From: Salinimicrobium catena
GTDB taxonomy: Bacteria; Bacteroidota; Bacteroidia; Flavobacteriales; Flavobacteriaceae
Length of the DNA: 37,273 nucleotides
Direction: 5' to 3'
Assembly (NCBI RefSeq): GCF_900102915.1
Contig: NZ_FNGG01000013.1
Span: 1-37,273 of the forward strand
The position numbers and the translations under genes are program-made. Positions 7,887-29,570 of the stretch are shown here, piece after piece (the stretch's first letter is position 1; the number at the start of each line of letters is the position of its first letter). The notes under the pieces were generated by a model. That model saw only the letters and a list, made by a program, of their open reading frames with translations, was not told the origin of the DNA and did no database searches.

Positions 7887-7905
7887 GATTGATTTTAAGA
7901 GGATG

Positions 7906-8227: not shown

Positions 8228-8291
8228 GTCATTGCGAGCGAGCCACGTCTGTAGAAAGACTGGTATGAATTTGATCGAGCGCGGCAATCTG
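8228..8291 (+). repeat. REP-like element, family A
   Basis: Begins gtcattgcgagcgagc and ends gagcgcggcaatctg, about 170 bases from the previous copy in the same orientation. Confidence 0.75.
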
Positions 8292-8349
8292 TTTCTATAA
8301 TCACTCCGTTCTCCCTACGGTCGTTCATAATCCGCCATTGATTTAAATT

Positions 8350-8405
8350 GTTCTTTTTTGCTGTGCATTCCTCTCACTCCGTTCGTCGGATGCAGGCAAA
8401 AGAAC
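8350..8405. repeat. Imperfect inverted repeat gttctttttt / aaaagaac
   Basis: GTTCTTTTTTGC (8350-8361) pairs with GCAAAAGAAC (8396-8405). It resembles the tighter hairpin at 27144-27172 and appears to be part of a larger dispersed repeat. Confidence 0.6.
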
Positions 8406-8455
8406 CAAAAAACGCTAGGCTTCAGTTTCTTTTTCACCCATTACGGTTCGAAGCT

Positions 8456-8505
8456 AAAAAAATTGCACTCTCCCGATAGCCATCGGGATCAGACAGCAAT
8501 TTTTT
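8456..8505. terminator. Compound hairpin with flanking T-runs, possible terminator
   Basis: The outer arms AAAAAAATTGC (8456-8466) and GCAATTTTTT (8496-8505) enclose a perfect inner stem CCCGAT/ATCGGG (8472-8477 with 8482-8487, loop agcc). Read on either strand the hairpin ends in a T-run, so it could terminate transcription coming from the wecA-like gene. It may instead simply be part of a dispersed repeat. Confidence 0.45.
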
Positions 8506-8633
8506 CTGACGCCTTCTTCACCTATGGGGCCCGAAGTCGAAACTGAGGCCATTTGAAATTCTGCTTCAAAGCTTTTCTAAATTCCTTTATAAAAACCAAA
8601 AAGGTGAACAGCAAACCGAAAACAGACTCGTTT

Positions 8634-8688
8634 GTCATCTCGACAGAGCTGATGCGACCGGAAGGGAGAAGCAGCGACGAGAGGTCTC
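8634..8688 (+). repeat. REP-like element, family B
   Basis: Begins gtcatctcgacagagctg and ends gcgacgagaggtctc. Confidence 0.75.
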
Positions 8689-8771
8689 TTTTTTAAAGTG
8701 ATGCTGTGACGAGGTGATGAAGTGATCATGGTAGATATTTGAGATACAGAAAAGAATTTTACCAATTAACC

Positions 8772-8813
8772 ATTCCCCATTCCCCATTCCCCATTCCCCA
8801 TTCCCCATTCCCC
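8772..8813 (+). repeat. Perfect heptad tract, attcccc x 6
   Basis: Six identical 7-base units followed by a diverged seventh (aatccca). It ends two bases before the stop codon of the minus-strand wecA-like gene. As a perfect short tandem repeat it is likely to vary in copy number between strains. Confidence 0.95.
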
Positions 8814-8822
8814 AATCCCATA

Positions 8823-9986: not shown

Positions 9987-10112
9987 TGGAAATGACTGAA
10001 GTTTTTTTAAAAATATTATTTTGGAAGGATAGGGGAAGGGGGAATTTTTGTTGTGTTTTTAGAATTACCTTTTTTATCGGATTAATTATAAAGGTAAGCA
10101 GAAATTGTTTTT

Positions 10113-11243: not shown

Positions 11244-11253
11244 TCGTAAAATT

Positions 11254-12652: not shown

Positions 12653-13156
12653 CTATTTTAGATTCCGATTTCCTAAACCTACAATAATGGAGTTTGCGGG
12701 AATATCTTTTGTGACAACCACTCCGGCACCGATGATAGAATTTTTTCCTATTGTAATTCCACTTAAAACAGAACTATTTGTTCCAATCCAGACCCCATCT
12801 TCAATAAAAATGGGTTTTGCTATATGGTGGTTATAGGGAGGTCCTTCTGCTAAATCCAAACCTGCTGTTTCTATTGTAACAAACTTTGATAAAACAACAT
12901 TTCTTCCAATAGTTATTCCTCCTTTTCCTCCCAAGGTGCAATTTTTTCCTATTCTTGTATCTTTACCGACTTTTATGTTTTCACCATATTTTATTTCTGT
13001 CGTAAAATGACAAATACTGTTTGAACACTCATGTACTAAGGCACGATATTTTATGTTTGACCATATGCGTTCCAAAAAACCTATAGTGTATAAAATTAAT
13101 TTGCTAACGGGGCGAATTAACTGAGAAGAGCTAAAAATCTGTAATAATCGTTTCAA
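12653..13156 (-). CDS. Hexapeptide-repeat (left-handed beta-helix) O-acetyltransferase
   Basis: A 167-residue protein of the WbbJ/maa type. Imperfect [LIV]-G-x-x hexapeptides run from about residue 58 onward (IKVGKDTRIGKNCTLGG, ITIGRNVVLS, VWIGTNSSVLSGITIGKN, IIGAGVVVTKDIP), including the GAGVVVTKDIP motif near the C-terminus. Such enzymes use acetyl-CoA to acetylate sugar hydroxyls. The likely target is a sugar of the repeat unit. The start overlaps the dioxygenase stop by 4 bases (ATGA), indicating translational coupling. Confidence 0.87.
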   Translation of the reverse strand: MKRLLQIFSSSQLIRPVSKLILYTIGFLERIWSNIKYRALVHECSNSICHFTTEIKYGENIKVGKDTRIGKNCTLGGKGGITIGRNVVLSKFVTIETAGLDLAEGPPYNHHIAKPIFIEDGVWIGTNSSVLSGITIGKNSIIGAGVVVTKDIPANSIIVGLGNRNLK

Positions 13157-14025
13157 TTTTTTAATAATAATCTATTAATATATGAGTTATAGTTATTCGA
13201 AATTTTAACAGGTTTGTAGTTTTCAATTCCAACAGGATTAATAGAATATTGGATTTGTAATAATAATCTGTCATTTTCAATAGGTAAAGTCCCTTTATGA
13301 AAACCATAAGTATCTACCAAAAAACAACTCCCTTTAGGTCGGGTAAAGCTAATTATATTGTCTTCACCAAATTGCTCAATAACTTCTGAATCTTGGTACC
13401 TTCTAATTGTGGTAAGTTTATTTGTAGAAGAGGAGCCCTTCACATAAGTATGTGGACCATCATTAGTGCCCACATCGGTTAAATAAATGAACAATTTGCA
13501 AAACTTTAAATCATCAACATCTCTGTGAAATAATTGAGCATCTTTGGCCTGTTCTTTTCCAGCTTTCGACCACCACATATTTACATTACTTATAGTAGGG
13601 GTACATCCCAAAAAATCCTGAACAATTCTTAAAATTCCTGGATCATTTGCAATATTCATTATCTCAGTGCATTTTATGAGATCTTGCCGGCTGAAATTTG
13701 CAACATGTGTTTTATTAGGGATAGTTGAAAATTCAAAATGTCCTAGTTTGCGGTCGAAGGGATCGAACAGTGGGAGTTTTGAGGAATAGTCTTTAATTTC
13801 TTTTAAATCCTTAGGGTCAAGCAGGTGATCCAATTCTACATAGCCGTCTTTAGATAGAATATTTGTAAACTCAGATTCATTATTCTGATCTACAAATTTT
13901 GACAGGCCAGTGATTTTAATTTTACCTTTTTTATGGGCCTGAATTTTCGTTATAGAGGTTCTTAATCCATAAGATTTGATGGTCCTTTGGCCGTAAAAAA
14001 ATATTTTTTTAGAAAAGTTTTTCAT
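13153..14025 (-). CDS. PhyH-like Fe(II)/2-oxoglutarate-dependent dioxygenase
   Basis: A 290-residue protein with the jelly-roll iron-binding triad HRD (His167, Asp169) and distal His243 (GFHKGT), plus Arg253 in a position suited to bind 2-oxoglutarate. PHTYVKGSS matches the phytanoyl-CoA dioxygenase family. These enzymes hydroxylate or otherwise oxidise C-H bonds. The gene overlaps wzy by 17 bases and the acetyltransferase by 4, so it belongs firmly to the polysaccharide operon. It could create a hydroxyl that the neighbouring acetyltransferase then acetylates; this is an inference. The substrate is unknown. Confidence 0.82.
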   Translation of the reverse strand: MKNFSKKIFFYGQRTIKSYGLRTSITKIQAHKKGKIKITGLSKFVDQNNESEFTNILSKDGYVELDHLLDPKDLKEIKDYSSKLPLFDPFDRKLGHFEFSTIPNKTHVANFSRQDLIKCTEIMNIANDPGILRIVQDFLGCTPTISNVNMWWSKAGKEQAKDAQLFHRDVDDLKFCKLFIYLTDVGTNDGPHTYVKGSSSTNKLTTIRRYQDSEVIEQFGEDNIISFTRPKGSCFLVDTYGFHKGTLPIENDRLLLQIQYSINPVGIENYKPVKISNNYNSYINRLLLKN

Positions 14026-15292
14026 ATTTATAAAATCTGTTAGATATAATTGAGAAAATTAAAAGACTCGTAAGAATAAAGATTCCTCCTGCACCGTTTA
14101 CAAAATTGAAAACTGGGGCAAACATAAGAACGATGAAAAAATAAAATAGCATTATAATAGCCCAATCGCTTCCTTTTTTAGATTTTTCATAAATATTTCT
14201 AGTGACTTTCCCAAATAATAACATAAATACGATAGTAAGCCACCCAAAATCGAGATATAAAGGACCAAAAAAAGTAGTATAGACACCTTCTCTAGGGGCT
14301 AACTTTTGAAGTTTTTCTTGATCAAAATTGGTTCCCATGATTTTAGAGAAAAATCTGTCATACACAGCAAATGTATATCCCCCTAATGAGTGTTCTTTGT
14401 GAAAGTTATCATATAAATAAGAAAATTCAATCATTCCGTGGGTAAAGTACTGGATAGTAGTTATATAAGTAAATGAAATTGTTTGGGAAATCGAATTCAT
14501 ATTACGGAAGTTATTTTTGAATTCTTTATTAGATGTTAGGGTATAATTAACATTAGACTCGTTTAAAACAATTTCATAAGTTTTATTCCCTGCGAACTCC
14601 CTAGTTCTTTCTAAAAAAATAAAATTCATTAAAAATAAGAAAGCAAGAAACGCAAATAGGACGATTATTGATTTTCGGAAAGTGAATCGAATTTTTTTAA
14701 AAAAGGCCATATAAAGGCCAAATAAAATAAAAAGAATAAATAAAATTGACCTCGACCCTAATAGAATAGCATCAAAGATTTGGGCAAAAAATAAAAGGAA
14801 AATAGCTCCTTTATAAAATCTATTAAATTTCAGGTTATATTTTAGGAGTAGAAACAATGGAATTATTCCTAAAGGTGAAAGAACTGCACTAAAAATAGCA
14901 AACGCATTTCCGCCTGCCCCTTCCATTAATTCACGATTATCGAAATAACCTGCTCCAATTGTAATTCCTCTTATAAAGAAACGGTCAAAAATTTTAACTG
15001 TGAGACCTAAAAGGGCTAAATTAAAAATGATTCTAAAAAGCTTTATTAAATGTTTATTACTTTTTGGAATTATGTAAAAATTAGTTTTGTTTTTATATAA
15101 TAAAGTTCCAAAAATAAAAGCAAGAATGTTTAAAAATAATAAAATATAAGCATCAAAATTTAATTTAATCTGAACTGACAATGGTGAAGTAATGAATAAG
15201 GCAATCCAAGTTAAGAAAGCTAGTAATATAACTTTGATAGGATGAATCTTCTTGAGAAAATCAATATTATTATAATGTGGAAACACGATCAT
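14009..15292 (-). CDS. Wzy-type oligosaccharide repeat-unit polymerase
   Basis: A 427-residue membrane protein with about ten to eleven hydrophobic segments and one large loop (roughly residues 225-345) between two membrane blocks, the usual layout of Wzy polymerases. Wzy joins lipid-linked repeat units on the periplasmic face. Sequence conservation in this family is low, so the call rests on topology and on being the only such protein in a locus with a flippase, Wza and Wzc. It overlaps the upstream transferase gene by 23 bases and the downstream dioxygenase by 17. It is strongly AT-rich. Confidence 0.75.
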   Translation of the reverse strand: MIVFPHYNNIDFLKKIHPIKVILLAFLTWIALFITSPLSVQIKLNFDAYILLFLNILAFIFGTLLYKNKTNFYIIPKSNKHLIKLFRIIFNLALLGLTVKIFDRFFIRGITIGAGYFDNRELMEGAGGNAFAIFSAVLSPLGIIPLFLLLKYNLKFNRFYKGAIFLLFFAQIFDAILLGSRSILFILFILFGLYMAFFKKIRFTFRKSIIVLFAFLAFLFLMNFIFLERTREFAGNKTYEIVLNESNVNYTLTSNKEFKNNFRNMNSISQTISFTYITTIQYFTHGMIEFSYLYDNFHKEHSLGGYTFAVYDRFFSKIMGTNFDQEKLQKLAPREGVYTTFFGPLYLDFGWLTIVFMLLFGKVTRNIYEKSKKGSDWAIIMLFYFFIVLMFAPVFNFVNGAGGIFILTSLLIFSIISNRFYKYEKLF

Positions 15293-16601
15293 TAACTACT
15301 TTTGAATAAGCATTTTTTAAGTTCAGTAAATTTTCTGGATCATCTAAATATCTTTTGTTATGGAGCCCATCACCATTAGTACCTTGAAAACTGGTAGAAA
15401 TTAATTGATTCAAAAATGATATTTTGTCATCCTCCTCAAGTTGGGGGAATTTACTTGTTTTCACAAGATCTATGGCATAATTTATATTTATTTCCTTCTC
15501 TTTGGTAAGGCAATTTTTTTGAAATCTTTGAATTCCCTGACCCAACAAAAAGACCGGTTTATTATCAAAAATACACTCGATTGAAATTGTGCCAGTAACG
15601 GTGACTACTAGATCAATATGTTCCCACACTTCGTCCATTTTACAGGAATGTTTTAAGGGAATAACTCTATCTGGATTGTCTTGGATAAATTTTATTACTT
15701 CTGGACAAATTTCATATTTCGATTTAGGATTAGGTTTGATAATTAACTTTTCATCTTCCCCTAAATTATCTAATATATCCTGGAGGACTTTAGCTTGATT
15801 ATTAAAAGGGAACCCCCAGACATCAATATTCGCTTCTGGCTGCATTTGCATAGGATACATTACATAAAATTCTTTTTTCAAAGCCCCAATTCCTACTGCA
15901 AGTTCTTCCCATTCCTTAATTAATTGAGAATAAAATCTGTTGATTTTCCATTTTCTGAAAGGGGATGGGGTGTTGTATTTTTCTCCTAAATAGTATCCGA
16001 AGGTTAAACGAATTTTATCTTTAATTAGATCAATTTTGGATGGTTTGAACTTCGAAACTTCCATGTAGTCGGGTAATGCTAGTCGTTTTCCTATCTTAAA
16101 AGCTGTTTCTTTTGCTTCTTTTTCCGGCAGTTTTTCATTTGAAGAACCATAAGGTTCCAGAGTATCATATTTGTAAAAGGAAAACCTATTTTTGGGATAT
16201 CTGCAGGAAGAAGGATGTAAATAAAGAATACCTCTTTTTTTACATCCTTTTATTACTAATAATTCATGGAAAAGAGTTGATTCTCCAAAAACCAGGTCAG
16301 GTTTCAGTTCATCTAATTTTTTTTCGATTTCATTTTCATACCAAAATATAAAATCATCTTTTTTTATTCCAAAATAGTTTAAGCCTCGATTCCCTTTTAT
16401 TATTTTGTTGAGGGACCGTGTGTAAAACTTCTTCTTTTTAAACTTTTTGGGAAAAGGTAGTATATGAACTTCCCCAAAAGAAGGTTTGAAAATTGGGTTT
16501 TGTACTATCCATTGTACTTTATGTCCGTCTTTTTCATATTCTCTTCCAATCGACTCCCAAAGGGAAGTTTTATAGCGATTTTCAATAAATAAAATAGTCA
16601 T
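15270..16601 (-). CDS. GT-B-fold transferase, candidate nonulosonate transferase
   Basis: A 443-residue soluble protein without membrane segments. The C-terminal half contains LVVTVTGTISIECIFDNKPVF followed by LGQG, the glycine-containing donor-site pattern of capsule synthesis proteins (KpsC/KpsS-like) and CDP-activated-group transferases. The central part has MYPMQMQPEANIDVWGFPF, and EKLIIKPNPKS resembles the KxHP segment of that group. It starts 2 bases after the pseI stop, so I infer that it transfers the CMP-activated nonulosonate made by the neighbouring genes. It does not show the N-terminal pattern of PseG hydrolases. The family is clear only at fold level. Confidence 0.6.
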   Translation of the reverse strand: MTILFIENRYKTSLWESIGREYEKDGHKVQWIVQNPIFKPSFGEVHILPFPKKFKKKKFYTRSLNKIIKGNRGLNYFGIKKDDFIFWYENEIEKKLDELKPDLVFGESTLFHELLVIKGCKKRGILYLHPSSCRYPKNRFSFYKYDTLEPYGSSNEKLPEKEAKETAFKIGKRLALPDYMEVSKFKPSKIDLIKDKIRLTFGYYLGEKYNTPSPFRKWKINRFYSQLIKEWEELAVGIGALKKEFYVMYPMQMQPEANIDVWGFPFNNQAKVLQDILDNLGEDEKLIIKPNPKSKYEICPEVIKFIQDNPDRVIPLKHSCKMDEVWEHIDLVVTVTGTISIECIFDNKPVFLLGQGIQRFQKNCLTKEKEININYAIDLVKTSKFPQLEEDDKISFLNQLISTSFQGTNGDGLHNKRYLDDPENLLNLKNAYSKVVNDRVSTL

Positions 16602-16603: not shown

Positions 16604-17644
16604 CTATTCAGCTATAAGTGAGAAATCCATTCTCGTACCTTTTTCAATAGAAATGTTTGCATGTTTTCCCAGAATTTGCGGAAGATATTTCGGATGCATT
16701 CCGAATCCCGGCCTAATACTTTTTACTTTTTCGTCAGTAATCACTTCTCCTTCCTTAATATCTTCAACCACATAAAGTGACCTGCTAAAATCCTTTCCTT
16801 TTTTTTGTTTTTCAGAGAGTGTATAATCCACTTTTCCGATAGCTTTTTCTGCTTCCCTAACGGCTTTGACCATTTCAGAAAACTCCTGTTCATCCATCGA
16901 GAAGGAGGCATCAGGTCCTCCCACAGATTTATTCAGAATAAAATGTTTTTCTATAATTTTGGCGCCTAAACATGTTGCAACTATTGGAACAGTAGAACCA
17001 ATTGTATGATCTGATAATCCGGAAATTACATTATAACGATCAGCCAGATCCTTAACCATTACCATATTTGCTTCTTCAATTGGAGCAGGATATGATGAGG
17101 TACATTTTAATAGGGCAATTTCATGGTTCCCCATACGACGACAAGCATCTAAGGCTAACTCGATGTCATTTTGATCAGCAATTCCAGTGGAAATGATTAT
17201 TGGCTTTCCTTTAGATGCTGCATATTCAATTAATGGGATATCCGTAATTTCAAAGGAGGCAATTTTATAGGCTGGAGTGTTCAATTCTTCTAAAAAATCT
17301 ACCGATGTTTTGTCAAAGGGGGATGAAAAACAAATTAATCCTTCCTCCTGTGCAGCTTCAAAAAGTGCCTGGTGCCATTCCCATGGAGTATAAGCTTCCT
17401 TATACAAATCGTAAAGATTTCTCCCTTCCCAAATGGTTCCTTTAATAAGGAAATCATCCTTTTGAGAATCAATGGTAATGGTGTCTGGAGTATATGTCTG
17501 CAATTTGATGCAATCTGCCCCCGCTCGTTTTGCCGCCTTGATCGTTTCCAAAGCAGTATCTAGATTCCCGTTATGATTGGCAGAAAGCTCTGCTATAATA
17601 AAAACCGACTCTTCTCCTCCTATCGTTCTATTTCCTATTTTCAT
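16604..17644 (-). CDS. pseI: Pseudaminic acid synthase-like NeuB-family enzyme
   Basis: A 346-residue NeuB-family protein. NeuB enzymes condense a six-carbon amino sugar with phosphoenolpyruvate to give a nine-carbon nonulosonic acid. The barrel domain has IAELSANHNGN, AGADCIKLQTYTPDT and ISGLSDHTIG. YDLYKEAYTPWEWH followed by GLICFSSPFDKTSVDFLE is characteristic of the PseI branch rather than NeuB or LegI. The C-terminal SAF antifreeze-like domain spans about residues 290-346. The start overlaps the stop of the double GNAT gene by 4 bases. With pseB and pseC in the same run, a Pse-type (L-glycero-L-manno) precursor is likely; later modification is suggested by other genes here. Confidence 0.92.
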   Translation of the reverse strand: MKIGNRTIGGEESVFIIAELSANHNGNLDTALETIKAAKRAGADCIKLQTYTPDTITIDSQKDDFLIKGTIWEGRNLYDLYKEAYTPWEWHQALFEAAQEEGLICFSSPFDKTSVDFLEELNTPAYKIASFEITDIPLIEYAASKGKPIIISTGIADQNDIELALDACRRMGNHEIALLKCTSSYPAPIEEANMVMVKDLADRYNVISGLSDHTIGSTVPIVATCLGAKIIEKHFILNKSVGGPDASFSMDEQEFSEMVKAVREAEKAIGKVDYTLSEKQKKGKDFSRSLYVVEDIKEGEVITDEKVKSIRPGFGMHPKYLPQILGKHANISIEKGTRMDFSLIAE

Positions 17645-18648
17645 TTCAGCGTTTTTTCAAATTTAAATTCCGATGATTCTTTAACAGCCTTCTTATAATC
17701 AAGCTTTTCAAAAATCTTTATTGAAGCTATATTATCAGGTAATACCCACCCATAAACTTTTTTAACTAATGGTCTATTGATCTTAAGGAAATTCACTCCT
17801 TCTTCCAATAAATAGGTTCCTAATCCTTTGCCAGTAAAGTTTGGGTCCAACAAATAATTAATTTTGGCCAATTGTTCATTATCAAAATCGAATCTAATAG
17901 ACCCTGCTGCCACCCCGTTCACTTCTAATATGTAATATTCCCTGCCCGGGTTTTCGAGAGTATTGAAAAACCAGACTGCATGATCTTGAAGAGTTACTGA
18001 GTCCTTATTAAAAGAATACATTCTAATATTTGGATCATTGATCCATGAATATGTTTTTTGCAAATCAAAAGTATTTACTTTTCGAATTTTCGGTTCATTA
18101 TTCAATTTTGAATGAATCTTCACATCTATGAATTTATTCTCAAAACAGCAATGTTCTTTTAGCACTGAATCAAGTCCAAAACCTGCTTTTTCTAATGCAA
18201 CATATAATCTGGGTCTGAGATCAAATGCATAGGTATATATCTTATGTAAATTCAAATCTTCCCAAGCCACCTTTTCTAACAAGGTTAAATAATTAGTCCA
18301 ATGAAATTCGAAATGTTCTTTCTCTAAACTTGTATCCATGATAAAAGAAATTTCAGCATTCTTGTCTATCCAGTTAATATGAACCAGTCCCCCGTACCCA
18401 ATGCATTTATCATCCTCTAAATAGGAAAACAAAATTTGGGATGGCTCCTTCTTTTCAAAAAGATCTGAAATAACCGTATCAAAATAGGTATCCTGGTTTT
18501 CTCTTGTCAAAGGTTTAACCTGTCGCAAATGATACATTTGGTCATTGCGCCAGTTCATAATCTCATAGCGATCCTCCATTCTAATTGGGACTATAGAGTA
18601 TCTTCCTTCAGAAATGGATTGCATTTTCAGGGCCCTATAGAATTGCAT
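17641..18648 (-). CDS. Tandem GNAT N-acetyltransferase (two domains)
   Basis: A 335-residue protein made of two GNAT folds, about residues 10-165 and 170-335. The first has IGYGGLVHINWIDKNAEISF. The second has AAGSIRFDFD and the acetyl-CoA loop GKGLGTYLLEEGV, and resembles the PseH-type domain found alone or fused to PseG. PseH acetylates the C4 amine made by PseC. The first domain lacks a clear Q/R-x-x-G-x-G/A loop, so it may be diverged or have a different substrate. The gene begins one base before the upstream aminotransferase stop. A start at internal Met9 is also possible. No hydrolase domain is present. Confidence 0.82.
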   Translation of the reverse strand: MQFYRALKMQSISEGRYSIVPIRMEDRYEIMNWRNDQMYHLRQVKPLTRENQDTYFDTVISDLFEKKEPSQILFSYLEDDKCIGYGGLVHINWIDKNAEISFIMDTSLEKEHFEFHWTNYLTLLEKVAWEDLNLHKIYTYAFDLRPRLYVALEKAGFGLDSVLKEHCCFENKFIDVKIHSKLNNEPKIRKVNTFDLQKTYSWINDPNIRMYSFNKDSVTLQDHAVWFFNTLENPGREYYILEVNGVAAGSIRFDFDNEQLAKINYLLDPNFTGKGLGTYLLEEGVNFLKINRPLVKKVYGWVLPDNIASIKIFEKLDYKKAVKESSEFKFEKTLK

Positions 18649-19965
18649 TTAATTCAACCTTTTAAATCCGGAATGACACACAGGACCTTCCAGTAAATTC
18701 TCTATCTTTAATTCCCCTCTTTCACATTTACTGATCCTATCGAATACCTCATTTAAATTTTCAAAATATGCACTCAAATGCTTTTCTTCATGAGCAACAC
18801 TGGCATAGAACAAGGTGCTGGCAAGAAATCCTTTTTTAAGCATTTCCTGAGTTACATAAGTTTTATAATATAATGTCTTATCACTATTGAAGGAGTACGT
18901 GCTTAAGGCGGGAATTCCCGAAATACTGATGGATACGTCATTTTCTTCCGCGAGCTTTTTCCAACCCTTCTGCATGTTTTTTCCTGTTTCAGTAATAATT
19001 TCCCATGACCGGATCTTTTCCATTTCATCCAGGGTAGCAAGTGCTGCCACAGAACCAATTCTTTCTGTCCAGAAAGTACTGCTAATAAAAGTGGTTTGAG
19101 CAGCTTCCATCACAGATTGTTTTCCAACGACCGCGGTAAGTGCGTATCCATTACCAATAGTTTTGCCATACATGATCATGTCTGGCTCCACATCATATTT
19201 TTGATATATCCCTCCGAAAGTTTCACGAAATCCTGAAGTACATTCATCAAAAATCAAAACTATTCCACGATCTGTGGCAAGTTTTCTGACCTTTTTCAAA
19301 AAGTCATTTTCCGGTCCAAAATTTCGTACCACCTCCATTTTTATCACTCCTATATTCTCGGCATTCACAATGGACTCTAATTCTTCATAATTGTTATATG
19401 AAAATGGGTATACGGTATTTTTTAAATCCTTTGGAACCCCCTTAGGGCTTAGACCTGGAATTAAATGATTAGACAGATCATCTCCACCATTATGATTAGC
19501 CGAAAGATACCAATCATGCCAGCCATGGTAACCACAAATAGCGACCTTATCTTTTCCAGAAGCTGCTCTGGCGATTCGAATTGCAATTGAGTTAGCCTCT
19601 CCTCCTGTTCTGGCAAAACGAACCATATCCGCCCATGGGTTTAATTCAATTAACCTCTCAGCCAGCAGAACTTCTTCTGGACAGTTAAGTGTAGACATAT
19701 TCCCTTTACGAACAGCTTCCATAACAGCAGCATCCACTTTCTCGTTTCCATAACCAAGCGTGTTGGTTCCAATTCCCATTATCGACATATCGATAAGCTC
19801 CCTACCGTCAAGATCCCTTACCATACAACCCTTTGCCTCATCATAATAAGATGGCCACTCATCGGGAAGGAACATTTCGGGGCGCTTTGACAAAAGCATT
19901 GTCCCTCCCGGGATTAGCTTTTTAGCTTTTTCATAAAGCTCCTGTCCAGTTCTTAATTTAGTCAT
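18649..19965 (-). CDS. Class III (glutamate-1-semialdehyde type) PLP aminotransferase
   Basis: A 438-residue fold-type I PLP enzyme similar to HemL. Visible features are RTGGEANSIAIRIARAASG, GYHGWHDWY, the cofactor aspartate in LIFDECTSGFR (Asp240) and the Schiff-base lysine in MYGKTIGNGYA (Lys268). True HemL is a housekeeping haem enzyme. The location inside a nonulosonate cluster argues for a sugar aminotransferase here. It overlaps the cytidylyltransferase gene by 8 bases. Pseudaminic acid needs only one aminotransferase (PseC), so this second one suggests an additional amino group. The target carbon is unknown. Confidence 0.85.
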   Translation of the reverse strand: MTKLRTGQELYEKAKKLIPGGTMLLSKRPEMFLPDEWPSYYDEAKGCMVRDLDGRELIDMSIMGIGTNTLGYGNEKVDAAVMEAVRKGNMSTLNCPEEVLLAERLIELNPWADMVRFARTGGEANSIAIRIARAASGKDKVAICGYHGWHDWYLSANHNGGDDLSNHLIPGLSPKGVPKDLKNTVYPFSYNNYEELESIVNAENIGVIKMEVVRNFGPENDFLKKVRKLATDRGIVLIFDECTSGFRETFGGIYQKYDVEPDMIMYGKTIGNGYALTAVVGKQSVMEAAQTTFISSTFWTERIGSVAALATLDEMEKIRSWEIITETGKNMQKGWKKLAEENDVSISISGIPALSTYSFNSDKTLYYKTYVTQEMLKKGFLASTLFYASVAHEEKHLSAYFENLNEVFDRISKCERGELKIENLLEGPVCHSGFKRLN

Positions 19966-20725
19966 TTAATAAAGATTTTATATAGCCTTCGTTTCTTTGA
20001 ATATTCTGATTTGAAAATTGAGAAGAATTCTCGACAATGTACCTTGTATAGGTTTTCCAGTTCTCATCTGGGCCCAGGGCTTTTAGCAAAATTCTAATAG
20101 TTTCAAGGTCAACCGGTTCATCAACGGTCATGCGGATATCACTGTAGTTGCCCGGAACAGCGTAGTTATCAGACCTGAACATCTCTTCATTAAAATAAGA
20201 TGAATTCTTCCGGATAAAAGGCGTAACATGTTCCCTGTCTGAATTTAACCGGGCACCCTTCCATGCTTTCTCCAGAGCAGAAAACTTAAACACTTCGATG
20301 TCCTGACCATCTGGAAATTCCTGTTTTAAAACATTCGAACCATAATCCAGATCGTTTGCAACAGTCATTTCAACAACATCATCGATCAAAGTTGGATCTA
20401 TCAGTGGACAATCTGATGTTACTCGCACCACATAATCCGGATTTGGATTGAAACCGGATGCAGCCTTGTAAAATCTATCGAGTACGTCTGTAGTAGACCC
20501 TTGATATACCCGTACATTCATAAAATCGGCAATATTGATTATTTGTTCTACTCCCTCTTCTTTTGTGGTAGCTACCGTAATGTTATCTCCATAACGCGAC
20601 CTCTTAAGACGATATAAATGCAACCCCAGCATGGTATGCCCATTGACTTTTTGAAGGACTTTCTCAGGAAATCTACTGCTTCCTATCCTCGCTTGTGTGA
20701 TAATATTTACTTTTATATCTGCCAT
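19958..20725 (-). CDS. SpsF-like cytidylyltransferase, probable CMP-nonulosonate synthetase
   Basis: A 255-residue nucleotidyltransferase of the SpsF type (related to spore-coat SpsF and to PseF). The N-terminal ITQARIGSSRFPEKVL is the CTP-binding pattern R-x-x-S-x-R-x-P-x-K. VVRVTSDCPLIDP and SDIRMTVDEPVDLE follow. It probably activates the nonulosonic acid with CMP. The 13-base overlap with the aldo/keto reductase gene and 8-base overlap with the aminotransferase gene show tight coupling. In some genomes SpsF and an aldo/keto reductase are adjacent or fused, as I recall; this was not checked here. Confidence 0.85.
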   Translation of the reverse strand: MADIKVNIITQARIGSSRFPEKVLQKVNGHTMLGLHLYRLKRSRYGDNITVATTKEEGVEQIINIADFMNVRVYQGSTTDVLDRFYKAASGFNPNPDYVVRVTSDCPLIDPTLIDDVVEMTVANDLDYGSNVLKQEFPDGQDIEVFKFSALEKAWKGARLNSDREHVTPFIRKNSSYFNEEMFRSDNYAVPGNYSDIRMTVDEPVDLETIRILLKALGPDENWKTYTRYIVENSSQFSNQNIQRNEGYIKSLLND

Positions 20726-21582
20726 TCTGAAGGGTTTAAAAGAAAGGGGTCTTTAACCTTAATGTTATCGATTTCATTCAAAATTGCCTCTGGAATCATA
20801 TTCTCTGCCCAATATATATTTTGCTCTAATTGTTTAACCGAATCTACTCCAAAAAGAACTGCATCAACATATTCCTTATTTACAACATATTGCATTGCCA
20901 AATGACCTTTTTCCAGGTTATAGTCAAGAGCTAAATTCTTGATTTGTTCCAAATAGGGTTTCAAAGGTTTTAAATTACCGGGCAGATTTTTTTCATCCAT
21001 AAAAAATAAACCTTGCAGAAAGCAGGAGCGGGTATGAATTTCCTTTCCTGTCTCTTTTAACTCCCTTAATTTCTGCCCTCTTTGTTGTTCATTGTCCAGC
21101 ATATTAAAGGGCAATTGTATTACATCTACCTCATCTTCATCTTTCAAGGCCATTACCTCCCTGTTGGTATAGACTGAAACTCCCAATTTTTTGTACAACT
21201 TGTCTTTGGTGTTTATTATATCCTTCAAGTTGTCTTTGTTTTCCTGATAGGCATCAAAAGAATGAAACATAATAGTTTCCAGTCTTTCTAATTTTAGTTT
21301 TCCCAGACTTCGATTAAGAGATAATGCCCAGTTATCCTCAGAATTTTTACTGAACTTTGAAATTATTTTAAAACCTTTATCATGTTTCTGGTGATAAGAG
21401 CCAATTCTGCGCTCTGCCTCGCCATATGCTGCTGCTGTGTCGAGGGTTTCAATTCCCATTATGGCAGCCCTGTTTAAAATTTCATATACTTCAGCTTCGG
21501 GAAGTAAACCTGTTTGATTATTTATCCCGTATGGCAAACCAAATTGGACTGTTCCCAGAACTAATCTTTTACTCGTATTCAT
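20713..21582 (-). CDS. Aldo/keto reductase
   Basis: A 289-residue TIM-barrel oxidoreductase with the AKR tetrad Asp48, Tyr53 (LDTAAAYGEAE), Lys76 and His107 in place. It uses NADPH or NADH to interconvert a carbonyl and an alcohol. It lies 3 bases after the formyltransferase gene and overlaps the cytidylyltransferase. Such an enzyme is not part of the standard pseudaminic acid route. Paired with the class III aminotransferase two genes downstream, it could oxidise a side-chain hydroxyl to a ketone for amination. Reduction at another step is equally possible from sequence alone. Confidence 0.85.
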   Translation of the reverse strand: MNTSKRLVLGTVQFGLPYGINNQTGLLPEAEVYEILNRAAIMGIETLDTAAAYGEAERRIGSYHQKHDKGFKIISKFSKNSEDNWALSLNRSLGKLKLERLETIMFHSFDAYQENKDNLKDIINTKDKLYKKLGVSVYTNREVMALKDEDEVDVIQLPFNMLDNEQQRGQKLRELKETGKEIHTRSCFLQGLFFMDEKNLPGNLKPLKPYLEQIKNLALDYNLEKGHLAMQYVVNKEYVDAVLFGVDSVKQLEQNIYWAENMIPEAILNEIDNIKVKDPFLLNPSEWQI

Positions 21583-21585
21583 AAG

Positions 21586-22563
21586 TTATTTTAAAAATTT
21601 TCCTAACCGGAAAATTTTATTTTGTTGAGTTGATTTTCCATTAACCTCAATCTTCTTAACCAATAAATATCCGTCTTTCAAAGCTACTTTATACATTCCC
21701 AGTGAATTTTTACCAAATATCAATCCTTTAGCATGAGGGTGCAATTTTATAGTATTTACAAACTCTGCTTCCAGTATATTGATTTTTTTACCCTCCAGGT
21801 AACAGCATGCTCCTTCATGGGGATAACCAAATGCATGAATAAAACGAATTAAATCCTCTCCTGAAAAATTCCAGTTTATAATTCCATCAACTGGAGTACT
21901 TAGACGGGGAAAAGTCGTAGCATCCTCCATATTTTGTTTTAATCCTTTAAAACTAGGGTCTTGTAATGCTTTAATGGTCTCGGGCAGCAATGACTTAAAA
22001 GTATTCATCCTTATTTTAAACAAATCAATTGGATAGCATAAATCAGGAATTTTGTAATAGCTTTTAGCTATAATATTACCAGTGTCAATACCTGTATCAA
22101 TGAAATGAACACACCCATATAGTTTTTTTCCCCATTCACCATTTAGTATCATCCAAGAATCACTGGCAGCACCTCGGTATTTAGGTAACGGAGTAGTATG
22201 AATATTAAAAACTTTTTTTTTGAATTTTTCCAAAAAAGGTTGTTTAATTATATTTCTACAACCTATGCTAATAATGTACCCTGGATTAATACTCTCTATC
22301 CATTTGACTGCTTCTTGGGAGTTTACATCACGGCTTTCTAGAAGAGGAATGTTGTAATCTTCTACAACTTTAAAAACATTATAAGCATGATCTCCATAAA
22401 TTTCTTTCCTATTTTCCATCATTTGAAGATCATGAGTGTGCTCTTCTTTAGGATGAGTTATAACTCCACCTACTTCATAGCCTAGAGTAGAATTTTCTAA
22501 TAAAGATTCTATTGTAAATTTCACTCCAACTCCATGACCTAACAGAACAATTTTTTTATTCAT
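21586..22563 (-). CDS. Sugar N-formyltransferase (Fmt/ArnA-like)
   Basis: A 325-residue protein with the formyltransferase catalytic set: Asn120-x-His122 in FNIHTTPLPKYRGAAS and an aspartate in FIDTGIDTG (Asp156, Asp160). An Fmt-type C-terminal domain begins near residue 220 (PRLSTPVDGIINW). The donor is normally N10-formyltetrahydrofolate. It overlaps pseC by 8 bases, so the likely acceptor is the amine that PseC makes on the UDP-sugar, giving an N-formyl in place of the usual N-acetyl. A role on the second amine is also possible. It is clearly not housekeeping methionyl-tRNA formyltransferase by context. Confidence 0.87.
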   Translation of the reverse strand: MNKKIVLLGHGVGVKFTIESLLENSTLGYEVGGVITHPKEEHTHDLQMMENRKEIYGDHAYNVFKVVEDYNIPLLESRDVNSQEAVKWIESINPGYIISIGCRNIIKQPFLEKFKKKVFNIHTTPLPKYRGAASDSWMILNGEWGKKLYGCVHFIDTGIDTGNIIAKSYYKIPDLCYPIDLFKIRMNTFKSLLPETIKALQDPSFKGLKQNMEDATTFPRLSTPVDGIINWNFSGEDLIRFIHAFGYPHEGACCYLEGKKINILEAEFVNTIKLHPHAKGLIFGKNSLGMYKVALKDGYLLVKKIEVNGKSTQQNKIFRLGKFLK

Positions 22564-23740
22564 AAAAAGCTCTAATTTTTTTTATTACAAAATCTATCTC
22601 TAAATCTGTTAATGTTGGAAACATGGGTAAACTAATACATTTTATATAATAGTTTTCGGCATTCGGCATATCTCCTTCCTTCCAACCCAAGTCTCGATAA
22701 TATGGCATTAAATGGCAAGGGATGTAGTGGATTTGAGCAAATATTTTATGATCTCTTAAATGGTTATAAAGACCTAACCGATCTTTAACCTCGAGAATGT
22801 AAAGATGATATGCATGACCTTCAATAACTCCTGTCTGTCCCAGAATGAAATCTTCATTTTTTAATTCATTATAGTAAATATCTGCAATTTGCCGTCGGCG
22901 GTTCAAACCTTCTCCTGCTCTCCTTAACTGGCTAATTCCCAAGGCGGCCTGAAAATCTGTTAACCTGTAGTTAAACCCTAGATCCTGCATTTCCATATAC
23001 CAGCCAGGATAATTATGATTACCACCCGCAAATTCAATTGAGTTACTATACAGTTCATCATTTTTAATTATACCATGCGTGCGAAGCTGAAGTAATTTTT
23101 GGTATAATTCTTCATCATTAGTAGTAATCATGCCTCCTTCCCCGGAAGCAATATGTTTCACCGGATGAAAAGAAAATATTGCTAGGTCTGCAAAGTTACC
23201 ATTTCCGCAGAATTGTTTTTGACCTTTAGAGTCAGTGAAAAATCCTCCAGGGGCATGACAAGCGTCCTCAATGAGCCAGAGGTTATATTCTTTAGCCAGA
23301 ACTTTATATTCTTCTAAATTCACTGCGCGTCCAGCAAAATCCACGGGAATTATGCCGCTATATGTTCCTTTGGGAGCTTCTTCAAGAAGTTTTTTCACTG
23401 AACTGATGTCCAGGAGATAAGTTTCGGGATCAATATCAGCGAATACAACTTCACCACCACAATATCTTACACAGTTCGCTGATGCGGCAAATGTGATAGG
23501 AGTGGTAATTACTTTATCGCCTTCTTGTACGCCAAGCGCAAGTGTGGAAAGATGGAGAGCCGCCGTGCCATTCGCAACTGCCACTGCATACTTACTTCCT
23601 GTATAATCAGCAAAAGCTTTTTCAAATTCAGCAATCTTTGGTCCCTGAGTAAGATAATCTGATTTTAAGGTTTCAATAACCGCTTGTATGTCTTCCTCAG
23701 TAATATTTTGCCTCCCGTAAGGTATAGAGTTATTCGTCAT
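22556..23740 (-). CDS. pseC: UDP-4-amino-4,6-dideoxy-N-acetyl-L-altrosamine transaminase
   Basis: A 394-residue DegT/DnrJ/EryC1 aminotransferase. PseC puts an amino group on C4 of the keto sugar made by PseB, using glutamate. The N-terminal IPYGRQNITEEDI and DYLTQGPKIAEFE are typical of PseC, as are LIEDACHAPGG (Asp159) and the PLP lysine in FHPVKHIASGEGG (Lys195). I chose the ATG at 23738-23740, leaving 7 bases after the pseB stop. An in-frame ATG at 23777-23779 would add 13 non-family residues and overlap pseB. It is followed by the formyltransferase with an 8-base overlap. Confidence 0.92.
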   Translation of the reverse strand: MTNNSIPYGRQNITEEDIQAVIETLKSDYLTQGPKIAEFEKAFADYTGSKYAVAVANGTAALHLSTLALGVQEGDKVITTPITFAASANCVRYCGGEVVFADIDPETYLLDISSVKKLLEEAPKGTYSGIIPVDFAGRAVNLEEYKVLAKEYNLWLIEDACHAPGGFFTDSKGQKQFCGNGNFADLAIFSFHPVKHIASGEGGMITTNDEELYQKLLQLRTHGIIKNDELYSNSIEFAGGNHNYPGWYMEMQDLGFNYRLTDFQAALGISQLRRAGEGLNRRRQIADIYYNELKNEDFILGQTGVIEGHAYHLYILEVKDRLGLYNHLRDHKIFAQIHYIPCHLMPYYRDLGWKEGDMPNAENYYIKCISLPMFPTLTDLEIDFVIKKIRAFYE

Positions 23741-23747
23741 AATTTGG

Positions 23748-24764
23748 TTATTGTACAACTTCGAAAGTTTCATCCACATGCTCTTTTATTAAAGAACGCA
23801 GTGACTCCACAGTTTCCCATTCTGTATTTTCTCCCGAATTGTATTTGAAGCCTAACGGTACTTTTTTGGCATCAAATTCTCCAATGAATTCTTCTAAACT
23901 CCATCGGGGATTTGACGGTAGTATTGCGTAATACCTTCCTAAGTCATAAGTATAAAATGAATCTGAAGGAGTGATCATTTCTTCATGAACTTTTTCTCCA
24001 GGTCTGATTCCAACTATTTTCTTTTCACAATCCGGACCGATCGCTTCTGCTACATCCATTATTTTATAAGAAGGAATCTTTGGAACAAAAAGTTCCCCTC
24101 CCCATGCATGTTCCAGGGCGTGCATTACCATATCAACACCTCCTTGTAATGAAATATTAAACCTAGTCATTTCTGGGTCGGTGATGGGTAATACTCCTTC
24201 CTTCTGTTTATTAATGAAGAATGGGATGACCGAACCATTTGAACCCATAACATTTCCATAACGCACTACTGAGAATCGGATTGGGTTCCATCCTTTAATG
24301 TTGTTGGCTGCAATAAAAAGTTTGTCTGAAGTAAGTTTTGTTGCACCATATAAATTAATTGGAGCACAAGCTTTATCTGTAGATAATGCAACTACTCTTT
24401 CAACTCCAGTTTCCAAAGAGGCATGAACTACATTTTCAGCTCCACCAATATTCGTTTTTATACATTCATCCGGATTGTATTCGGCTATAGGCACATGTTT
24501 CATGGCTGCAGCATGAATGACGTAATCTACATCTTTAAAGGCTCGTATTAATCTTTCCTTATCGCGAACATCTCCAATTAAAAATCGTAATTGAGGATAC
24601 TGATGTTGGGGATATTCCTGAGCCATTTGAAATTGCTTCTGTTCATCCCGAGAGAAAATTACTAGCTTTTTTACGTTTGGATACTTATTCAGTATGTGAT
24701 TGGTTAAAGCCTTTCCTAAAGACCCTGTTCCGCCTGTAATTAAAATTGTTTTTCCGTTAATCAT
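23748..24764 (-). CDS. pseB: UDP-GlcNAc 4,6-dehydratase (inverting)
   Basis: A 338-residue short-chain dehydrogenase-fold protein. PseB turns UDP-GlcNAc into the 4-keto-6-deoxy-L-arabino sugar, the first step to pseudaminic acid. The NADP site is GGTGSLG (11-17). The catalytic residues match the FlaA1/PseB pattern: Asp130 and Lys131 in LSTDKACAP, then Tyr139 and Lys143 in LYGATK. VRYGNVMGSNGSVIPFF is also family-specific. The start lies 3 bases after the cupin stop, showing that the pathway is transcribed together with manC and the cupin gene. Confidence 0.94.
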   Translation of the reverse strand: MINGKTILITGGTGSLGKALTNHILNKYPNVKKLVIFSRDEQKQFQMAQEYPQHQYPQLRFLIGDVRDKERLIRAFKDVDYVIHAAAMKHVPIAEYNPDECIKTNIGGAENVVHASLETGVERVVALSTDKACAPINLYGATKLTSDKLFIAANNIKGWNPIRFSVVRYGNVMGSNGSVIPFFINKQKEGVLPITDPEMTRFNISLQGGVDMVMHALEHAWGGELFVPKIPSYKIMDVAEAIGPDCEKKIVGIRPGEKVHEEMITPSDSFYTYDLGRYYAILPSNPRWSLEEFIGEFDAKKVPLGFKYNSGENTEWETVESLRSLIKEHVDETFEVVQ

Positions 24765-27185: not shown

Positions 27186-29570
27186 TTACAAGCTCCAAAA
27201 CGCTGCTTTTCTCGTTAACCTCTTCCAAAGCGGAACCGTTTCCTCTCCATAGGTGTACCCGTATTTATTACCGTAACCAAATTCGGAGGTATCCAGCCCG
27301 TTCAGGATGAGCCCGATGTTCTCTAATTTTCCTTCTTCCTTAGCGTGGGCTACGAAATCCAGTAGTTTTCGGTCGGTATAATTGGCGCGTACTACATACA
27401 GGTTCAGGTCCACATGTTCGGTGATAAGGAAGGAATCCACTACCGGCATTGTAGGCGCCGAATCGATGATCACGTAATCATACAGGTCTTCCAGTTTTTC
27501 TATGAGGGTTTTCATGGCCGGCCTGTTCAGCAATTCGGTTGGGTTCGGGGGAATGCTCCCCGAAGCCAGGATATCAAAGCTCTCGTGCTGTCCTGATGGT
27601 TTGATCAGTTCTTCCAGGCCAAGTTCAGGGTCTACAAGGTAATCGCTGATCCCTCTGTAGCCGGTGCTTTCGGGAATGAAACGCTGCAATTGCGGATTCC
27701 TAAGGTCGGCTCCCAGCAGGATCACACTCTTCCCGCTGTGTGCGAGGGTGATGGCCAGGTTGAAGGAGGTGAAGGTCTTGCCCTCTCCCTTAATGCTAGA
27801 GGTCACCATGATACAGGTACCGTTGGTTTTACTGCTGCTCTTTACCAGGTATTGTAGGTTGTGCAGCAATATTCTAAATGCTTCTGCCAGCATGGAGCGG
27901 TCATTTCGCTGAATGAGCTCCGGATTATTTTTGGTGATCTTTGGCAGCTCACCCAGGATCGGAAAATTCTTCAGGTCTGTTTCCAGGTCATGACGGGACC
28001 GCACTTTATTGTTCAGTAAATTCTTGAGGTAGATAATTAAAAACGGAACCAGCATTCCTAAAATTAGGGCTGCCAAATACATGATCTTCGGCTTGGGTGA
28101 CACCGGTGCATCTGAGCTTCTGGCGTGATCCACGATCTTCGCTTTAGGGGCAGTGGCCGCCAGGGAAAGCGAATTATCTTCCCTTTTCTGAAGCAGGAAC
28201 AAATACAAACTCTCCTTGATCTGCTGTTGTCTCTCGATATTGCGGTATTCCATTTCCTTGACCGGAACCGCAGCAATCTTTGAGCCTATCAAAGCGGTCT
28301 CCCGGTTCAGGTTGTCCTGGGCTATTTTTAGATTCGCACGCAAGCGGGTAAGGCTGTGGTGAATGTTCTGTTTCAGTTCGGCGATCTGCTCATTGAGGGT
28401 GATGATCACCGGGTTCTTTTCGGTGGAGCCTTTCAAGATGCGGTTGCGCTCCAGGATCAATTCATTATAGCTGTTGATCTCTTCGTTGGCCATATTCTCA
28501 TCGATTCCCAGGTTGGCCGGTAGCAGTCCGGAGGAAGAACCGTTCTGCATGAATTCGAGCATGGCATCGGCAAGCTCGATCTGGGTGGCCAGTTCCTGCT
28601 GACGTTTTTTGTTTTCGGTGGCGCTGGTCAGGAAGACCTGCGACTCAGCCTGCAGGTCGGTAAGCTTATTATTTTCCTTGAATTCCACCTTCCCGGTTTC
28701 CACCGTCGCCAGCTCTTCATTGATGATGCCTAAGCGTTCATTGATGAAGTCTGCCGTGTTCAGGGCCAGCAGATTCTTGTCTTCAATGGCCTCCCTGTTA
28801 TACTCGCGCACCAGTTGGTCCAGGATATCCCGTGCTTTTTCACGAACAGGGTCCTGCAACTGAAGTTCGATAAGACTGGCATTCTTTTCTACTAATTGGA
28901 CCTGGAGTTCCTCCTGGTAAGCGTCGGCTACTTTTTCGGGCAGGTTCAGGCTTAAGAACAAGGCTCCTTCGAGATCTGCAGAGTGTTCATTTCTTCGGAA
29001 GCTCACCGTCGCGAACCCCAGGTTCACAGGTTCATTAAAGTCTGCCTTGTATTTCCTTTCATCTGAAAGCCGGAAGACCTCCAGGGAATTGTCATTTTTA
29101 AGTTCTATTCTGAAGCTGCTCGCTCCTGTATCTTCCAGGTCCATGAACTTTTCCCTGTCCAGGCTTAGCACCTGGGCGGTTACCGGACTAGTGCCGTACA
29201 GCTCTTTGTCCTGGAAAAATCCTTCAGAAAAATAACGCACGTTCAGGTCCAGCTCCTTCACCACGTTTTCCATGAGTCGGTACGACCTAAGGATCCCGAT
29301 CTCGTTTTCAATACTGTTGGTGTTCATCCCGCCCAGCATTCCGAGTTCGGTAAAGGCTTCCAGGCCGCTTGTCGGGTTCTTGTCTTCTTCCTTGATGAGG
29401 ATGGTGGCGGTGGTGGGATATACCGGAGTCATGAACTTAAGCACTACAAAACATGCAGCTACCGCGGCAATTATACAGGCCAGGAACCAGGGCCAGTAGC
29501 GAAGGTATTTTTGTAGTTCTTCTCGCAGGTCTATTTCCGCCTCAGCGGGTGTGTTTTGATGATTGGACAT
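27186..29570 (-). CDS. wzc: Wzc-like polysaccharide co-polymerase with BY-kinase domain, copy 2
   Basis: A 794-residue paralogue of the 4694-7096 product with the same layout: membrane segment near residues 28-50, long coiled-coil periplasmic part, second membrane segment near 495-520, and kinase domain. Walker A is GEGKT (595-599), the second motif is in VILLGADLRNPQ and Walker B is in YDYVIIDSAP. The tyrosine-rich tail FGYGNKYGYTYGEE (about 764-777) is almost identical to copy 1. All kinase motifs are intact, so this is not a decayed copy. It stands alone, with about 1 kb of non-coding DNA on each side and no adjacent wza. It has its own candidate promoter at 29866-29898. Confidence 0.93.
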   Translation of the reverse strand: MSNHQNTPAEAEIDLREELQKYLRYWPWFLACIIAAVAACFVVLKFMTPVYPTTATILIKEEDKNPTSGLEAFTELGMLGGMNTNSIENEIGILRSYRLMENVVKELDLNVRYFSEGFFQDKELYGTSPVTAQVLSLDREKFMDLEDTGASSFRIELKNDNSLEVFRLSDERKYKADFNEPVNLGFATVSFRRNEHSADLEGALFLSLNLPEKVADAYQEELQVQLVEKNASLIELQLQDPVREKARDILDQLVREYNREAIEDKNLLALNTADFINERLGIINEELATVETGKVEFKENNKLTDLQAESQVFLTSATENKKRQQELATQIELADAMLEFMQNGSSSGLLPANLGIDENMANEEINSYNELILERNRILKGSTEKNPVIITLNEQIAELKQNIHHSLTRLRANLKIAQDNLNRETALIGSKIAAVPVKEMEYRNIERQQQIKESLYLFLLQKREDNSLSLAATAPKAKIVDHARSSDAPVSPKPKIMYLAALILGMLVPFLIIYLKNLLNNKVRSRHDLETDLKNFPILGELPKITKNNPELIQRNDRSMLAEAFRILLHNLQYLVKSSSKTNGTCIMVTSSIKGEGKTFTSFNLAITLAHSGKSVILLGADLRNPQLQRFIPESTGYRGISDYLVDPELGLEELIKPSGQHESFDILASGSIPPNPTELLNRPAMKTLIEKLEDLYDYVIIDSAPTMPVVDSFLITEHVDLNLYVVRANYTDRKLLDFVAHAKEEGKLENIGLILNGLDTSEFGYGNKYGYTYGEETVPLWKRLTRKAAFWSL

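Follow-up and report, generated by a model that had tools for sequence, protein, structure and literature searches.

A stretch of 37,273 nucleotides from Salinimicrobium catena (RefSeq assembly GCF_900102915.1, contig NZ_FNGG01000013.1; the whole stretch is hereafter the window) carries at 16604-24764, on the reverse strand, one overlapping run of eight open reading frames (ORFs) whose product is very probably a rare surface sugar of nine carbons with a third nitrogen. From the predicted functions of these genes we propose, with a probability of about 0.7, that the product is a CMP-activated, N-acylated 5,7,8-triamino-3,5,7,8,9-pentadeoxynonulosonic acid of the pseudaminic type, made for a surface polysaccharide. 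The run encodes, in order, PseB, PseC, an N-formyltransferase (FT), an aldo/keto reductase (AKR), a cytidylyltransferase (CMPT), a class III aminotransferase (GSAT), a double GNAT protein and PseI, with gaps between successive genes of -32, -8, +3, -13, -8, 0 and -4 bases. An earlier reading of the same letters (the original prediction) had proposed a pseudaminic-type product with amines at C5, C7 and one more carbon, perhaps C8; the gene context described below argues for this, and the sugar class itself was already in print, so that the novelty lies in the genes and not in the sugar.

The proteins of the run were compared with curated NCBIfam models, whose cut-offs were applied for PseB, PseC, PseI, PseH, PseG, PseF and HemL. 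PseB, an inverting UDP-GlcNAc 4,6-dehydratase (23748..24764; TIGR03589, 506.9 bits against a cut-off of 407.75), PseC, the aminotransferase supplying what is later the C7 nitrogen (22556..23779; TIGR03588, 449.8 bits, cut-off 423.5), and PseI, of the pseudaminic acid synthase type (16604..17644; TIGR03586, 522.7 bits, cut-off 340.25), all exceed these values, in agreement with the original prediction, which had called the three genes clear. GSAT (18649..19965; Aminotran_3, 133.5 bits), the aminotransferase proposed for C8, has the Lys268 of the original prediction; this residue is invariant in 10 of 10 aligned homologues and pairs with the corresponding lysine of glutamate-1-semialdehyde aminomutase, and on the curated HemL model the protein scores 197.3 bits, far below the cut-off of 527.3. 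The reductase (20713..21582; Pfam, 91.4 bits), our proposed C8 oxidoreductase, had been credited with an intact tetrad, and residues D48, Y53, K76 and H107, which we take to be this catalytic tetrad, are identical across 12 AKRs. The formyltransferase, also named in the original prediction, is of the ArnA type (21586..22563), with Pfam Formyl_trans_N and Formyl_trans_C domains, matches to ArnA and weaker ones to PseJ; aligned to ArnA, its N120, H122 and D160 match the ArnA residues and presumably form the catalytic triad of ArnA-type formyltransferases. CMPT (19958..20725), an SpsF-type protein whose gene had not been listed earlier, matches CTP_transf_3 with 102.4 bits and is the sole cytidylyltransferase of the run; PseF is not among its NCBIfam matches, a search made with the proteins of the run and not in the rest of the genome.

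AKR, CMPT and GSAT are a real module. A GSAT search of 296 genomes of the phylum gave 48 matches at E<=1e-60, and loci were read over up to 20 kb for 11 nearer relatives (41-78% identity to GSAT) and nine more distant ones. In 9 of the 11 nearer loci the three genes are adjacent and follow this order. L040-L044 and L046 have CMPT fused to GSAT, and fusions of CMPT to AKR stand beside GSAT in L096, L101 and again L046, where this is a second CMPT. A scan of contigs from named genomes then yielded at least 588 pattern rows with at least 579 relatives, of which the best 80 were taken as loci; their record names place them in Bacteroidota, Proteobacteria, Cyanobacteria, Verrucomicrobia, Spirochaetes and other groups. 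AKR is present in 64 of the 80 and CMPT in 65 (64 within 100 bp, 47 fused to GSAT), together with PseI in 58, PseB in 47, PseC in 46 and PseG in 32. The original prediction had suggested comparing co-occurrence of the gene set in other genomes. Of the 80 loci, 57 have at least 5 kb on each side; 49 of these contain AKR, 48 CMPT (fused to GSAT in 33), 50 PseI, 41 PseB, 39 PseC and 25 PseG. The locus profiles used for these counts have self-set thresholds (the PseG profile was built from three sequences), and 1 PseB, 2 PseC, 1 AKR, 1 CMPT and 3 NeuB rows were left out of profile building as off-type.

As a control, the AKR profile at the same threshold matches 1 of 36 control loci. In the reverse direction, an AKR profile found 24 matching genomes among 398 of the Pseudomonadota; one was that of L075, and the 23 new neighbourhoods were read. 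AKR reaches at least 220 bits in 14 of these, 12 of which contain GSAT (3 close, >600 bits; 9 more distant, 300-334 bits; a HemL-like paralogue in the window genome scores 151 bits on the same profile), and GSAT is present in none of the nine neighbourhoods with AKR below 220 bits. The two exceptions are L231, where AKR is the last gene at a contig end, and L227, where a DegT-type aminotransferase (9141-10352) follows AKR in GSAT's place, surrounded by CMPT, PseB and NeuB. With inserts, the order pseB-pseC-AKR-CMPT-GSAT-pseI is found in many phyla and on a plasmid (L216). Among ten viral contig loci found with an AKR alignment, seven have a GSAT relative (250-325 bits), L250 and L257 looking alike: the IMG/VR locus L250 carries PseB, AKR, CMPT and a GSAT relative at 5084-8665, between terminase and portal genes, and L252, also from IMG/VR, carries the same set plus NeuB at 1751-7043, flanked by terminase small subunit and portal genes. 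Two variants were seen within the phylum. The nine loci L048-L056 hold a second group of GSAT relatives, with about 33-36% identity and profile scores of 292-340 bits, most of which have CMPT and a short NeuB-type protein (about 290 residues) nearby, and in L038 GATase, HisF-like and Diphthami_syn_2-like genes lie within the module at 6578-9166, which suggests an amidino group in that strain.

Several observations weigh against so close a tie. The 80 loci are those nearest to the window GSAT, mutually related and not a random sample; AKR is absent from 16 of them, several of which are truncated, and from two of the 11 nearer loci (L044, L047). Five loci with 5 kb or more of flank in each direction (L111, L114, L119, L123 and L127) have GSAT without AKR or PseI, and L091, L100 and L137 carry PseI and no AKR, so that GSAT can also occur apart from this gene set. 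GSAT loci that lack NeuB or AKR are what one would expect if AKR, CMPT and GSAT made a separate, co-transcribed sugar, the polysaccharide then consisting of ordinary pseudaminic acid and another residue. We judge this improbable, given that the pseB-pseC-AKR-CMPT-GSAT-pseI order recurs across many phyla, on the L216 plasmid and in part in the phage loci L250 and L252, and that CMPT is the one cytidylyltransferase of the window's run. Four of the GSAT homologues just mentioned (L111, L114, L119 and L123, at about 10000-11300) lie on marine alphaproteobacterial contigs with no AKR, CMPT or NeuB nearby, and in L111 and L119 the ORFs next to GSAT agree in size and order.

The chemistry of pseudaminic acid points to where the module would act. 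Its C5 nitrogen comes from GlcNAc, its C7 nitrogen from PseC and its C9 methyl from PseB, and C6 lies in the ring, so that only C4-OH and C8-OH are free hydroxyls. C8 corresponds to C5 of the hexose, whose oxygen is held in the pyranose ring until PseI acts; a modification at C8 must therefore come after PseI, and such a late step fits the adjacency of AKR and GSAT to CMPT and their fusion with it. In 15 AKR+GSAT loci the PseI profile gives NeuB no more than 187-276 bits, compared with about 420-650 for close PseI, as expected if the AKR/GSAT step follows NeuB.

A tested system with related domains comes from Acinetobacter prophages: in the passages available of the report (PMC12053666), EpaA is a fusion of CTP_transf_3 and Aldo_ket_red, EpaB is a short-chain dehydrogenase/reductase (SDR), and the two convert Pse5Ac7Ac to 8-epipseudaminic acid, as judged by NMR. 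Passages of a survey of Vibrionaceae and Moritella describe an SpsF-like and AKR fusion followed by a dehydrogenase (PMC7371886). In our data, AKR and CMPT with an EpaB-type SDR and no GSAT occur on Priestia, Marinovum and Maritalea plasmids, and the pair is partnered by GSAT in a Pseudosulfitobacter locus. The SDR profile is present in 2 of the 64 GSAT+AKR loci, and no EpaB-type SDR lies between pseB and pseI in the window. Among 22 further Bacteroidota loci considered below (L191-L212), six bear AKR, of which three have a class III relative (L191, 311 bits; L199 and L203, 206 bits), two have an SDR and L194 has a weak SDR match of 101 bits. The two with an SDR, L210 (5480-7983) and L211, are Bacteroidota pse clusters in which AKR, an EpaB-type SDR (272 and 263 bits) and CMPT are consecutive without GSAT, and they are candidate 8-epimerisation loci outside prophages.

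The AKR common to both kinds of pair suggests a common step, oxidation at C8. By analogy, the partner would set the outcome, an SDR leading to inversion and an aminotransferase to amination, and with a class III aminotransferase in place of the SDR the product should be an amine. One rule would then cover AKR and cytidylyltransferase pairs in sialic-acid-like clusters, with the partner deciding between C8 inversion and amination. Some considerations count against this reading. AKRs usually reduce carbonyls, and the oxidising direction proposed here is taken from EpaA/EpaB, for which the passages of PMC12053666 do not state which enzyme oxidises. The kinship of the window AKR and CMPT with EpaA is set by published domain content only, not sequence: in a phage collection the window AKR had no match and the L101 fusion had three partial ones, which cover its cytidylyltransferase half only, and viral contig scans gave L213 and the ten AKR loci, none of them identified as EpaA.

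Two other outcomes of the AKR and GSAT reactions have to be weighed. The enzymes might act on C4, the sole other free hydroxyl of a nonulosonic acid, and 4-epi nonulosonic acids do exist; we regard this as very unlikely, since the only tested CMPT+AKR system found, EpaA/EpaB, acts on C8 and the known triamino sugar of this type is an 8-amino sugar, as far as the passages available on each describe them. Alternatively, GSAT, whose nearest characterised relatives are glutamate-1-semialdehyde aminomutases, could be an aminomutase like HemL that moves the amine between C7 and C8, AKR reducing the leftover ketone, to give a sugar with two amines, at C5 and C8. In the window, however, two genes of acyltransferase type, FT and GNATC (the C-terminal half of the double GNAT protein), have a likely catalytic site; the known Flexibacter maritimus sugar has amines at C5, C7 and C8 according to the passages cited below; and a GNAT gene immediately precedes AKR in 15 of 20 AKR+GSAT loci from Bacteroidota, whereas 1 of 16 loci lacking AKR and GSAT has a GNAT of this kind, which fits an additional amine. 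We hold a mutase to be an outside chance and prefer amination at C8. The GNAT profile of this slot count was built from three of the 20 loci, and the window is outside the 20; GSAT was called here at 500 bits, which excludes L191, and at 250 bits in the reading of the loci L191-L212, where L191 (311 bits) is counted.

The same count bears on the acyl groups. The window FT occupies the slot in which relatives have a GNAT next to AKR, and in simple clusters an acyltransferase adjoins PseI (a GNAT in L198, a formyltransferase in L206). From these positions FT would probably serve the 8-amine and GNATC N7, although the reverse is possible and the acyl positions are ambiguous, a point against the proposed product. 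An earlier assignment of FT to N7 was downgraded after the slot count.

The PseB and PseC families make UDP-2-acetamido-4-amino-2,4,6-trideoxy-L-altrose, and the PseI family condenses the free sugar with phosphoenolpyruvate (PEP). In the proposed pathway, PseB and PseC of the window would produce this altrose derivative, and GNATC would probably acetylate its 4-amine, later N7. The N-terminal half of the double GNAT protein (GNATN) would probably do the job of PseG, releasing UDP, a step of which we are less sure than of the others. PseI would condense the freed sugar with PEP, and only then would C8-OH become free. AKR would oxidise C8-OH to the ketone and GSAT would transaminate it, on the free or the CMP-linked sugar, beside the cytidylyltransferase. 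Judging from its gene slot, FT would most likely cap the new 8-amine and less likely N7. The predicted product is the 5-acetamido-7-acetamido-8-formamido sugar, or an isomer with the formyl group at N7.

The PseG step deserves separate attention, as no PseG was found in the whole genome to which the window belongs (3.26 Mb, 26 contigs), the best score being 21.1 bits against a cut-off of 153.55. The protein that the original prediction called a double GNAT has two Pfam GNAT stretches. GNATC (17641..18099) is a PseH-like GNAT with the motif FTGKGLGT, which scores 59.9 bits on the PseH equivalog model TIGR03585, below its cut-off of 93.1, the proteins of the run and not the rest of the genome having been searched for PseH. 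GNATN (18100..18648) is a candidate PseG replacement with a predicted GNAT fold (AlphaFold2 pLDDT 91) that is matched by SpeG and PseH structures, and each of 12 GNATN members shows a weak match to PseH. The CoA-binding loop of GNAT proteins follows the fourth strand and has the motif Q/R-x-x-G-x-G/A. This motif is correctly placed only in the C-terminal stretch of the double protein; SpeG has the loop, and in none of 34 GNATN sequences (the 12 members and the 22 of L191-L212) does G-x-G/A follow the fourth strand; in 3 of the 12 such a motif occurs by chance at residue 81, outside the CoA-loop stretch. With an N-terminal half that has no CoA loop and occupies PseG's place in relatives, the protein is not simply two acyltransferases, and the original prediction changes on this point.

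PseG and GNATN exclude each other. In the 80 GSAT loci PseG is present in 32, GNATN in 9 and both in none, and in 11 GNATN genomes PseG is never over the cut-off (best partial match 23.8 bits). We then surveyed 395 genomes of the class (taken as Bacteroidia) for GNATN at E<=1e-20, with PseG called at E<=1e-10. GNATN occurs in 23, all among the 75 genomes with PseI over its cut-off; 50 of the 75 have PseG (33 over the curated cut-off), none of them together with GNATN, and GNATN is found in 23 of the 25 that lack PseG. The two genomes with neither are G343, where PseI begins at a contig end, and G629. Fisher's test for the 75 genomes gives p 2.5e-17 with relatedness ignored, and shared descent alone is insufficient to explain the pattern because six genera contain both PseG-bearing and GNATN-bearing members. 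The 22 new GNATN loci (L191-L212) all carry PseI, 20 carry PseB or PseC (not L201 and L208), 16 lack AKR, and none has PseG at 50 bits. L198, among the simplest, reads PseB-PseC-PseF-GNATN-GNAT-PseI, with PseF over its cut-off, the GNAT loop intact and nothing else between. In L085 PseG is fused N-terminally to a PseH-like GNAT, and GNATN is fused likewise to a GNAT in the window, L066, L071 and six of the 22 new loci, while L064, L068 and L135 hint at such a fusion only by length or weak scores. Of 35 loci with PseB, PseC, AKR, CMPT, GSAT and PseI, 22 have PseG, 7 have GNATN and 6 have neither at the self-set thresholds; one of these last, L117, shows a PseG-like sequence at a weak 47 bits, and the genome of L132 has no match. 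Tannerella forsythia, also of the Bacteroidota, has a gene named pseG in its cluster according to passages of PMC6120980, as expected for the PseG-bearing part of the phylum, and literature listings together with passages of two papers contain no report of a PseG replacement.

The simplest reading of this distribution is that GNATN does PseG's job. That it would do so as a new nucleotide-sugar hydrolase, a PseH-derived GNAT fold that has kept the UDP-sugar site and lost the CoA loop, carrying out PseG's step in Bacteroidota and feeding a C8-amination cassette whose core is also phage-borne, is a tentative proposal to which we give somewhat less than an even chance. With a chance close to even, GNATN is no hydrolase, an unrelated cellular hydrolase frees the UDP and GNATN is a substrate-binding helper or serves some other step. 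We know of no GNAT-fold nucleotide-sugar hydrolase, neither PseG nor GNATN is present in 2 of the 75 PseI genomes and 6 of the 35 complete module loci, and hydrolase-type genes do adjoin PseI in GNATN clusters: a metallophosphoesterase with an ATP-grasp protein in L067 (12569-14219) and a HAD hydrolase in L210 (12201-12896). Such a helper role fits poorly with the exclusion from PseG in the 75 genomes (both 0, PseG 50, GNATN 23, neither 2) across six mixed genera, and with the L198 run, which has no other gene inside. A PIG-L protein was found in L037. If GNATN does stand in for PseG, a large enzyme fold would contain an unexpected change of function, and many pse clusters of Bacteroidota would receive a corrected annotation.

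The neighbours of the run include glycosyltransferases, Wzc-type proteins and an export protein, so the locus is a surface polysaccharide locus. Adjoining pseI on the same strand is a PF05159 (Capsule_synth) protein (15270..16601; 25.8 bits, cut-off 20), with no relative in the PDB up to E 1, which is possibly the nonulosonic acid transferase. It was ruled out as a PseG substitute because its relatives adjoin PseG in L078 and L087. The ORFs at 14009-15292 and 11254-12591 have no Pfam matches and by sequence character are possibly the polymerase and flippase, and a PhyH-type protein (13153-14025) is weak, with 23.0 bits against a cut-off of 22 and no NCBIfam match. A hexapeptide transferase, two glycosyltransferase-family proteins and a polysaccharide export protein are also near the run, and two Wzc-type chain-length proteins lie in the same locus (4694-7096 and 27186-29570).

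The predicted product belongs to a class already described from the O-antigen of Flexibacter (Tenacibaculum) maritimus, which in the passages available contains a 5,7-N-acylated 8-amino-3,5,7,8,9-pentadeoxy-manno-nonulosonic acid with no assigned C8 configuration (PMC3210612; PMC4052302). That sugar differs from ours in its acyl groups, acetyl and 3-hydroxybutyryl, given on N5/N7 once and reversed elsewhere in the same review, which traces it to a 2003 study (Vinogradov 2003) of one fish-pathogen O-antigen (PMC3210612). The open-access literature searched, as titles, abstracts and some passages, reports no genes for this sugar or for triamino nonulosonic acids and no paper linking T. maritimum with 'nonulosonic', and passages of one review and one paper on T. 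maritimum give no O-antigen gene content. GSAT is found at E<=1e-140 in 9 of 382 genomes of the Polaribacter family, in which the taxonomy used here also places the window; on the other side of the balance, a T. maritimum 16S primer, whose letters may be in error, matched none of 12 GSAT-bearing genomes (these nine and three others), where the species is perhaps unsampled. The module thus provides candidate genes for 8-amino nonulosonic acids, whose biosynthesis becomes directly testable.

Compared with the canonical CMP-pseudaminic acid pathway (PseB, C, H, G, I and F), the window shares PseB, PseC, PseI, a PseH-like GNAT and a cytidylyltransferase, differs by the absence of PseG from the genome and by a cytidylyltransferase without a PseF match, and goes beyond it in AKR, GSAT and the formyltransferase. 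The PseJ formyltransferase named for that pathway (PDB 6ci2 and others) is a weak match to FT (E 9e-10), which is nearer ArnA and, unlike PseJ, carries a C-terminal Formyl_trans_C domain. By gene content the module recalls the O-antigen cluster of Legionella serogroup 6, where passages of PMC3694923 place PseG, a glutamate-1-semialdehyde aminomutase and an acylneuraminate cytidylyltransferase next to one another with an aryl-alcohol dehydrogenase nearby. The original prediction had taken its model for C8 oxidation and amination from KdnB and KdnA of Shewanella, which make 8-amino-Kdo by oxidising C8 and then transaminating it. KdnB belongs to the iron-type alcohol dehydrogenases and KdnA to the DegT-type aminotransferases, whereas the window has AKR and Aminotran_3 proteins instead. 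The C8 chemistry itself draws support from the module linkage, the fusions, EpaA/EpaB and the known sugar, and the closest precedent is EpaA/EpaB rather than KdnA/KdnB. Both EpaA/EpaB and the window link CTP_transf_3 to an aldo/keto reductase, EpaA/EpaB acts on C8 of pseudaminic acid, and the phage-borne AKR-CMPT-GSAT loci parallel the phage carriage of EpaA/EpaB; the two differ in the partner, an SDR there and a class III aminotransferase in the window.

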